This document shows, one piece after another, positions 32,364 to 32,859 of a stretch of DNA of 43,062 nt. The notes beneath the pieces were generated by a model. The model saw only the letters and a program-made list of their open reading frames with translations. It did no database searches and was not told the DNA's origin. A program made the translations under genes and the position numbers. Source of the stretch: Opitutia bacterium (lineage in GTDB: Bacteria > Verrucomicrobiota > Verrucomicrobiia > Opitutales > Seribacteraceae). Numbering within the stretch: the first letter of the stretch is position 1; every line of letters begins with the position of its first letter. The stretch is from positions 1-43,062 of the forward strand of contig JABGWZ010000071.1 in NCBI GenBank assembly GCA_018675995.1, in the 5' to 3' direction.

Positions 32364-32606
32364 TCAAGCAGCCAACTTGGGTGTTGCATTAAGTAGCTTG
32401 TGAAAAAGATCATCCCTTCGTTTTCTGGCTTCCGATAAAATTCGTGTTTTCAAAGATTGCCTTTTTCGCTCAGCAGTTACCGGGGTTGGGTAGATGGTGT
32501 AATGTATCCACCAAGTCCCATTATTATTCCACAGGTGGTGATTCAGGTTATCCTTGTCTATTCGAAGAGCTAACTCTTCAAATTCATTGTATGTACTTAT
32601 TTTCAT
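32364..32606 (-). CDS. 80-aa protein resembling the N-terminal arm-type DNA-binding domain of tyrosine recombinases
   Basis: NNGTWWIHYTIYPTPVTAERKRQSLKTRILSEARKRRDDLFHKLL follows the W-x-hydrophobic...R-x-SL-x-T...EA-x-x-R pattern of integrase arm-binding domains; AAGGA ribosome-binding sequence upstream. Confidence 0.65.
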   Translation of the reverse strand: MKISTYNEFEELALRIDKDNLNHHLWNNNGTWWIHYTIYPTPVTAERKRQSLKTRILSEARKRRDDLFHKLLNATPKLAA

Positions 32607-32772
32607 GGAGCGTTTTCCTTTCGGTTAACGCACTTTCCCTAGCATTGGTAGGGGAGTGCTTATTTTCGGTTGTGCCAAAACCGCGCATCCCGGTTAAATC
32701 GACCTTGTACCACCGTAGCAGCTCTCCTGCTCGGTTGGTAACCTACATTAGGTTGTCTTTGGATACGGTAAG
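32607..32772 (-). ncRNA. structured 5' leader / candidate cis-regulatory RNA
   Basis: Four inverted repeats in ~125 nt: 32740-32754 (AACCTA-ATG-TAGGTT on the minus strand), 32709-32739, 32667-32683 or alternatively 32679-32695, and 32630-32659; preceded by a promoter-like sequence. Confidence 0.5.
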
Positions 32773-32778
32773 TGGCTA

Positions 32779-32806
32779 AATATAAAAGAACAGAAATTTT
32801 ATTCAA
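32779..32806 (-). promoter_or_regulatory. candidate promoter for the structured leader and 80-aa gene
   Basis: Minus strand TTGAAT (32806-32801), 16-bp spacer, TATATT (32784-32779). Confidence 0.5.
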
Positions 32807-32859
32807 AGGATTTTACATTATTTTGGCAAACTTTCTTTGTGTCATAAAATAGCGACCTT

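Follow-up and report, generated by a model that had tools for sequence, protein, structure and literature searches.

The SAM-binding pocket of SAM-I riboswitches comprises positions 6-8, 11-12, 44-47, 57-59 and 87 (PMC6890682). In comparison with SAM-IV, for which a P5 and a P5-linked pseudoknot have been described, SAM-I/IV RNAs have an undivided P2, a P4 and no first pseudoknot (PMC6890682), and SAM-I/IV variants without the internal loop of P2 have been reported (PMC2864571). Ligand changes within the SAM-I aptamer fold are documented, one example being spermidine (PMC10853860). Regulons of the transcription factors SahR and SamR have been described for Proteobacteria (PMC4239095).

Here we analyzed a stretch of 43,062 nucleotides (the window) from an Opitutia bacterium (Verrucomicrobiota, Seribacteraceae; GCA_018675995.1, contig JABGWZ010000071.1), on the minus strand of which a structured leader of about 165 nt precedes an 80-aa open reading frame (ORF; 32364..32606). 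We propose, with a probability of roughly 80%, that this leader is a riboswitch of the SAM-I/IV type (SAM clan), which, when SAM is abundant, would turn off the encoded DNA-binding-like protein of the arm type.

The leader RNA and its riboswitch class

A 191-nt fold of the leader has a predicted energy of -53.4 kcal/mol; the leader is more structured than shuffled sequence (z = -2.57) and ranks among the lowest 2% of same-length segments of the window. Its G+C content is 0.497, compared to 0.383 in the window. These values bear out an earlier reading made from the sequence alone (the sequence-only reading), which had described a G+C-rich leader dense in pairing and had placed TTGAAT-16-TATATT, four hairpin sequences, AAGGA and the ATG of the 80-aa ORF on the minus strand, where all of them are found. 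The four hairpins exist but are not independent, since they represent P2, P3, P5 and the downstream hairpin of one architecture, and P1 (CGUAUCC/GGAUGCG), which closes the whole structure, had been overlooked.

A scan with Rfam at the gathering cut-off detected no RNA family at the window leader, whereas a permissive scan placed RF01725 (SAM-I/IV) exactly there with 30.7 bits (E 0.0029), below the cut-off of 41.1 bits. The same model matches 14 further leaders of the family at 25-33 bits and Opitutaceae-type leaders at up to 39 bits, and orthologous leaders in front of the same ORF reach 41-49 bits. Within the class, 11 of the 14 RF01725 matches over the cut-off are located directly upstream of orthologues of the 80-aa ORF. 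A covariance model trained exclusively on 28 leaders from outside the family detects that of the window at E 5.9e-8, recovers each of the 18 other family leaders tested and also retrieves an over-cut-off SAM-I/IV RNA in front of a homocysteine methyltransferase gene. The over-cut-off relatives and the recovery by the outside-family model indicate orthology of the window leader with bona fide SAM-I/IV RNAs in spite of its low score. The assignment accounts for a leader that escapes Rfam at its cut-off. RF01725 has no second match in the window genome, which lacks any other SAM-I or SAM-I/IV hit, and SAM-I (RF00162) is without a match in the 38 genomes searched. Three loci (L172, L178 and L179) exhibit RF01725 matches above the cut-off without a small ORF nearby.

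The aptamer can be traced helix by helix, with all elements on the minus strand. The 5' strand of P1 (CGUAUCC, 32761..32767) pairs with the 3' strand GGAUGCG (32684..32690), with covariation that includes a compensatory change from C-G to U-A. The adjoining J1/2 (AAAGA, 32756..32760) contains a GA that is invariant in the family alignment and corresponds to G11-A12 of SAM-I in the cmscan alignment; a 2-nt insertion in J1/2 is common to the leaders of the family including that of the window. P2 (AACCU...AGGUU, 32740..32754) lacks an internal loop, and each of its five pairs shows compensatory changes. P3 (32710..32738) carries CCAACC/GGUGG on the side of the SAM pocket, both invariant in 42 leaders, and its upper helix covaries. 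GGAG in the P3 loop (32724..32727) is complementary to CUCC (32653..32656) downstream of P5, and the two form the 5' and 3' strands, respectively, of a pseudoknot of 4 bp in the window and of 5-8 bp in most relatives. Compensatory versions distinguish the lineages (GGAGA/UCUCC, GGAGU/ACUCC, GGGAGCG/CGCUCCC, AUAGG/CCUAU, GAGAGC/GCUCUC). P4 (GGU/ACC, 32692..32704) is weak in the window with about three pairs and has longer, clear stems in relatives. P5 (CGGUU...AACCG, 32667..32683) aligns to the P5 that is part of the RF01725 model. It is followed by the hairpin Px (GCACUCCCCUACC...UAGGGAAAGUGC, 32630..32659), a competitor of the pseudoknot whose covariation score is reached by 0 of 500 shuffles.

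The covariation of P1 and P3 amounts to 0.254 versus 0.128 in shuffles, none of 500 reaching the observed value, and is also well above slid controls; within the family, covariation extends to P2 and Px. In Opitutaceae and others the leader reads GCAUCAGGA...GCCAACC...GGUGG...GAUGUGC. The AUC, GA, CAAC, UG and P1 A of the SAM-I pocket are kept in every aligned leader (42 leaders; J1/2 GA after realignment). Pair 43-59, a G-C in SAM-I, is a C-G in the leaders, as in the RF01725 consensus. Judged from these alignments, the window leader retains P1, P2, P3, P5, the pseudoknot and nearly all bases of the SAM pocket. Conservation and covariation across homologous loci, which the sequence-only reading had named as its check, are both evident from the upstream alignment and the comparison with shuffles. 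The leader has the marks of a functional RNA, being conserved and covarying, and belongs to a kind already known.

The window copy shares with SAM-I/IV (RF01725) the P1, the continuous P2 without internal loop, the covarying P3 with CCAACC/GGUGG, a putative P4, a P5 after P1, the pseudoknot from the P3 loop to the sequence after P5 and the SAM-contacting bases. It differs in its score below the cut-off, its longer J1/2, its short P4 and pseudoknot and its predicted translational platform, and what it conservedly precedes is no metabolic gene but one for a tiny DNA-binding-like protein. The absence of the P2 internal loop is also common to the variants reported earlier (PMC2864571). With SAM-I (RF00162) it has the pocket bases and the P1-P4 layout in common, but P2 of the leader has neither kink-turn nor internal loop, and P5 and the P3-loop pseudoknot are additional. 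We regard the window leader as a divergent SAM-I/IV riboswitch, very likely with SAM as its ligand.

Proposed control of the small ORF

Among 86 distinct leaders, 36 have a terminator between aptamer and ORF, and in 38 a 7-mer complementary to the 5' strand of P1 recurs downstream (control 0). This 7-mer falls into the 5' arm and loop of the terminator in most terminator-bearing leaders. Such competition of a terminator with P1, predicted for these distant relatives, corresponds to the arrangement of SAM OFF switches. The window leader lacks a terminator. Here the pseudoknot shares bases with Px, and Px in turn shares bases with the hairpin GCGUU...AACGC (32610..32631), which surrounds the AAGGA ribosome-binding site and is conserved in position. 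The overlap of the three elements suggests translational OFF control in the window. It is likely that the leader acts as an OFF switch.

The conserved pocket bases let us expect that SAM binds between P1 and P3 and stabilizes P1 together with the pseudoknot between the P3 loop and CUCC. In the window genome the pseudoknot would then occupy the 5' arm of Px and free its 3' arm, the AAGGA hairpin would close and translation would stop; the closure is a step that we infer, because covariation of the ribosome-binding-site hairpin was sought in relatives and found no support. When SAM is scarce, Px would form and the ribosome-binding site would open. Most relatives in Opitutaceae appear to use this aptamer for a terminator/antiterminator switch instead, a difference visible in the sequence. 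The least certain steps concern the protein, which would be produced under a shortage of SAM or sulfur amino acids; it would probably bind DNA as a small transcription regulator, and it might also act on its own TATGACA box.

The region upstream of the leader contains three further elements on the minus strand. The TTATGACAC box (32839..32847) is conserved upstream of the promoter and is a candidate operator or activator site. It is followed after 9 nt by a TTGC (32826..32829) that is conserved in the family alignment and is likely part of the -35 element of a putative promoter. GTTCTTT (32785..32791), a boxA candidate near the probable transcript start, is found at every family locus whose sequence extends that far and also precedes many Opitutaceae and Chthoniobacter leaders. 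The TTGAAT-16-TATATT promoter of the sequence-only reading holds as a match to the consensus and only as that, with the elements conserved in relatives located further upstream. TATGACA/TGTCATA precedes the ORF in 84 of 124 homologous loci, a count of related loci rather than of independent events, compared to 1 of 121 downstream and 0 for the reversed control. The box is also found upstream of the ORF where the riboswitch is absent, and its placement fits autoregulation or a dedicated regulator. Two further assignments were rejected: TTATGACAC as a genome-wide regulon motif, with 10 sites in the genome, mostly inside genes, and 16 in the reversed control, and TGACAC-N9-TTGC as a sigma-54 promoter, which has the wrong spacing.

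The 80-aa protein and its distribution

The sequence-only reading had likened the protein to the arm-type domain of a tyrosine recombinase without its catalytic domain, and the profiles agree. Each of the 43 homologues gives a weak match to DUF6538 (best E 2.4e-6), and 10 of them match Arm-DNA-bind_3; the window protein itself scores 12.2 bits against the Pfam arm-type profile, a weak match relative to the cut-off of 27. The AlphaFold2 model (mean pLDDT 79) has a beta-beta-beta-alpha topology with three strands and a subsequent helix. Neither the catalytic domain of tyrosine recombinases nor any further domain is present in the ORF. NCBIfam has no match for the window protein, PHROGs yielded only weak integrase matches for a homologue, and a sequence search of the PDB returned nothing meaningful. 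Fold searches against the PDB and viral models were not significant, phage integrases appearing only among the weak viral matches. The three strands plus helix and the weak profile matches of all homologues are shared with the arm-type domains of tyrosine integrases; the protein differs in that it stands alone with 70-80 aa and has a nearly invariant core, NHHLWNNNGTWW...R.R.SL.T...AR..RD. The profiles and the model are best read as an orphan arm-type domain, and the protein may well serve as a DNA-binding regulator.

The ORF is present as a single copy in the window genome and has a relative in 33 of 44 genomes of the family, always one per genome, and in 155 of 385 genomes of the class. It is widespread in Verrucomicrobiota and Lentisphaerota, with loci in Opitutia, Chthoniobacter and Lentisphaera, and viral contigs, plasmids and phages contain no relative. 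Most copies have unrelated neighbors and no adjoining sulfur gene, which argues for the ORF itself as the main target of the riboswitch. An association with methionine or SAM genes is found in a few relatives and not at the window locus. Examples are the arrangements riboswitch-ORF-metK (L176) and riboswitch-ORF-metY-metX (L073, where metX was assigned by reading its sequence).

Lentisphaera and the loci L096, L108 and L110 have the ORF but not the leader. At the latter three loci, which lack the riboswitch, a short ORF for a Cys-rich peptide precedes the gene (MMMMIMCCCINQQQ..., MMMIMCCCINANS... and MCLCIIQS...; L096:5769-5834, L108:149-208 and L110:5804-5848) and is followed by a terminator-like hairpin, for which the tool scan covered L096. 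Such a combination of leader peptide and hairpin is a probable cysteine attenuator. The gene order at L096 and L110 is ORF-cysI-cysG, the small ORF being followed by the genes for sulfite reductase and siroheme synthase. The sulfur-gene operons and the Cys-rich leader peptides tie the small ORF to sulfur amino-acid status.

Alternative explanations and physiological context

Could an RNA with the SAM-I/IV fold sense another ligand, as do the spermidine-sensing SAM-I variants? Ligand changes within this fold are known (PMC10853860), the target is not a metabolic gene and J1/2 has its family-specific 2-nt insertion. However, the spermidine variants differ at the SAM-contact bases in J1/2 and in the internal loop of P3, which the leaders investigated here keep, and linkage is to metK, metY-metX and sulfite reductase genes. 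We consider a different ligand unlikely. Even less probable is the proposal of the sequence-only reading that the leader and the 80-aa protein make up a new autoregulatory module, with the leader as the binding site of the protein. Linkage of leader and ORF in most relatives and the capacity of arm-type domains to bind nucleic acid would accord with it, but the RNA matches a known small-molecule aptamer, so that a small molecule and not a protein is the expected partner; moreover, the aptamer occurs without the ORF in front of the homocysteine methyltransferase gene and the ORF without the leader in Lentisphaera, L096, L108 and L110. Autoregulation by the protein at the level of DNA, via the TATGACA box, is possible.

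The integrase-like domain invites a further explanation, close to the mobile-element remnant of the sequence-only reading: the ORF would belong, or have belonged, to a mobile element, with the leader as control region. In a few genomes copies precede genes that we read from the sequence as restriction methylase, AbiE-like or MoxR/VWA genes. Its single copy in the family, its wide distribution in the class, the lack of phage, plasmid or viral-contig relatives and the nearly invariant NHHLWNNNGTWW core speak against a mobile element, which we regard as highly improbable, whereas domestication of such an element in the distant past is possible. The loci in question (L205, L207, L208, L209, L184 and L111, with a type I restriction methylase among the downstream genes) have the appearance of defense islands.

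A SAM-I/IV riboswitch in control of the small ORF would broaden the scope of this RNA type: throughout the bacterial class it would serve one main target, in place of the metabolic enzymes that are usually controlled. Tentatively, and with less confidence than in the riboswitch itself, we envisage a domesticated integrase arm domain that functions as a tiny regulator of transcription or the chromosome across Verrucomicrobiota and Lentisphaerota. In most lineages a dedicated SAM-I/IV riboswitch would set its level, elsewhere a cysteine leader-peptide attenuator, and this level would report the status of SAM and sulfur amino acids. We found no description of such a relay from riboswitch to transcription factor in the literature. 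The connection to SAM and sulfur amino acids provides a first functional clue for an unnamed small protein family of many Verrucomicrobiota, probably including relatives of Akkermansia, and makes its role directly testable.

The methionine cycle of the window genome seems to be governed by a different operator. The palindrome TCAACATATCATGATATGTTGA is located, perfect or near-perfect, in front of metK, metH and a metF-like gene (G000:C7:2068-2089, G000:C147:5859-5880 and G000:C238:4824-4845; L223-L225), which are its three sites in the genome, with none for the reversed control. These sites resemble a SahR/SamR-like regulon in a verrucomicrobial genome: they share the ATC-N-GAT type of palindrome with the proteobacterial regulons (PMC4239095) and are separate from both the leader and the TATGACA box. 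The upstream regions of metK and metH lack the TTATGACAC box, and control of both genes by the small protein via this box was rejected on account of its absence and the SahR-like palindrome in its place. The different operator and the missing box give no support to direct action of the protein in the SAM cycle of this genome, and it is not obviously a SAM-cycle regulator.

Two minor observations concern the surroundings of the small ORF. A TPP riboswitch (55.1 bits, L132:966-1079, minus strand) is located near one of its loci. In some genomes of one family, which are probably relatives of Akkermansia, two copies of the ORF lie close together (L216, G130:C9, G307:C9 and G272:C2).
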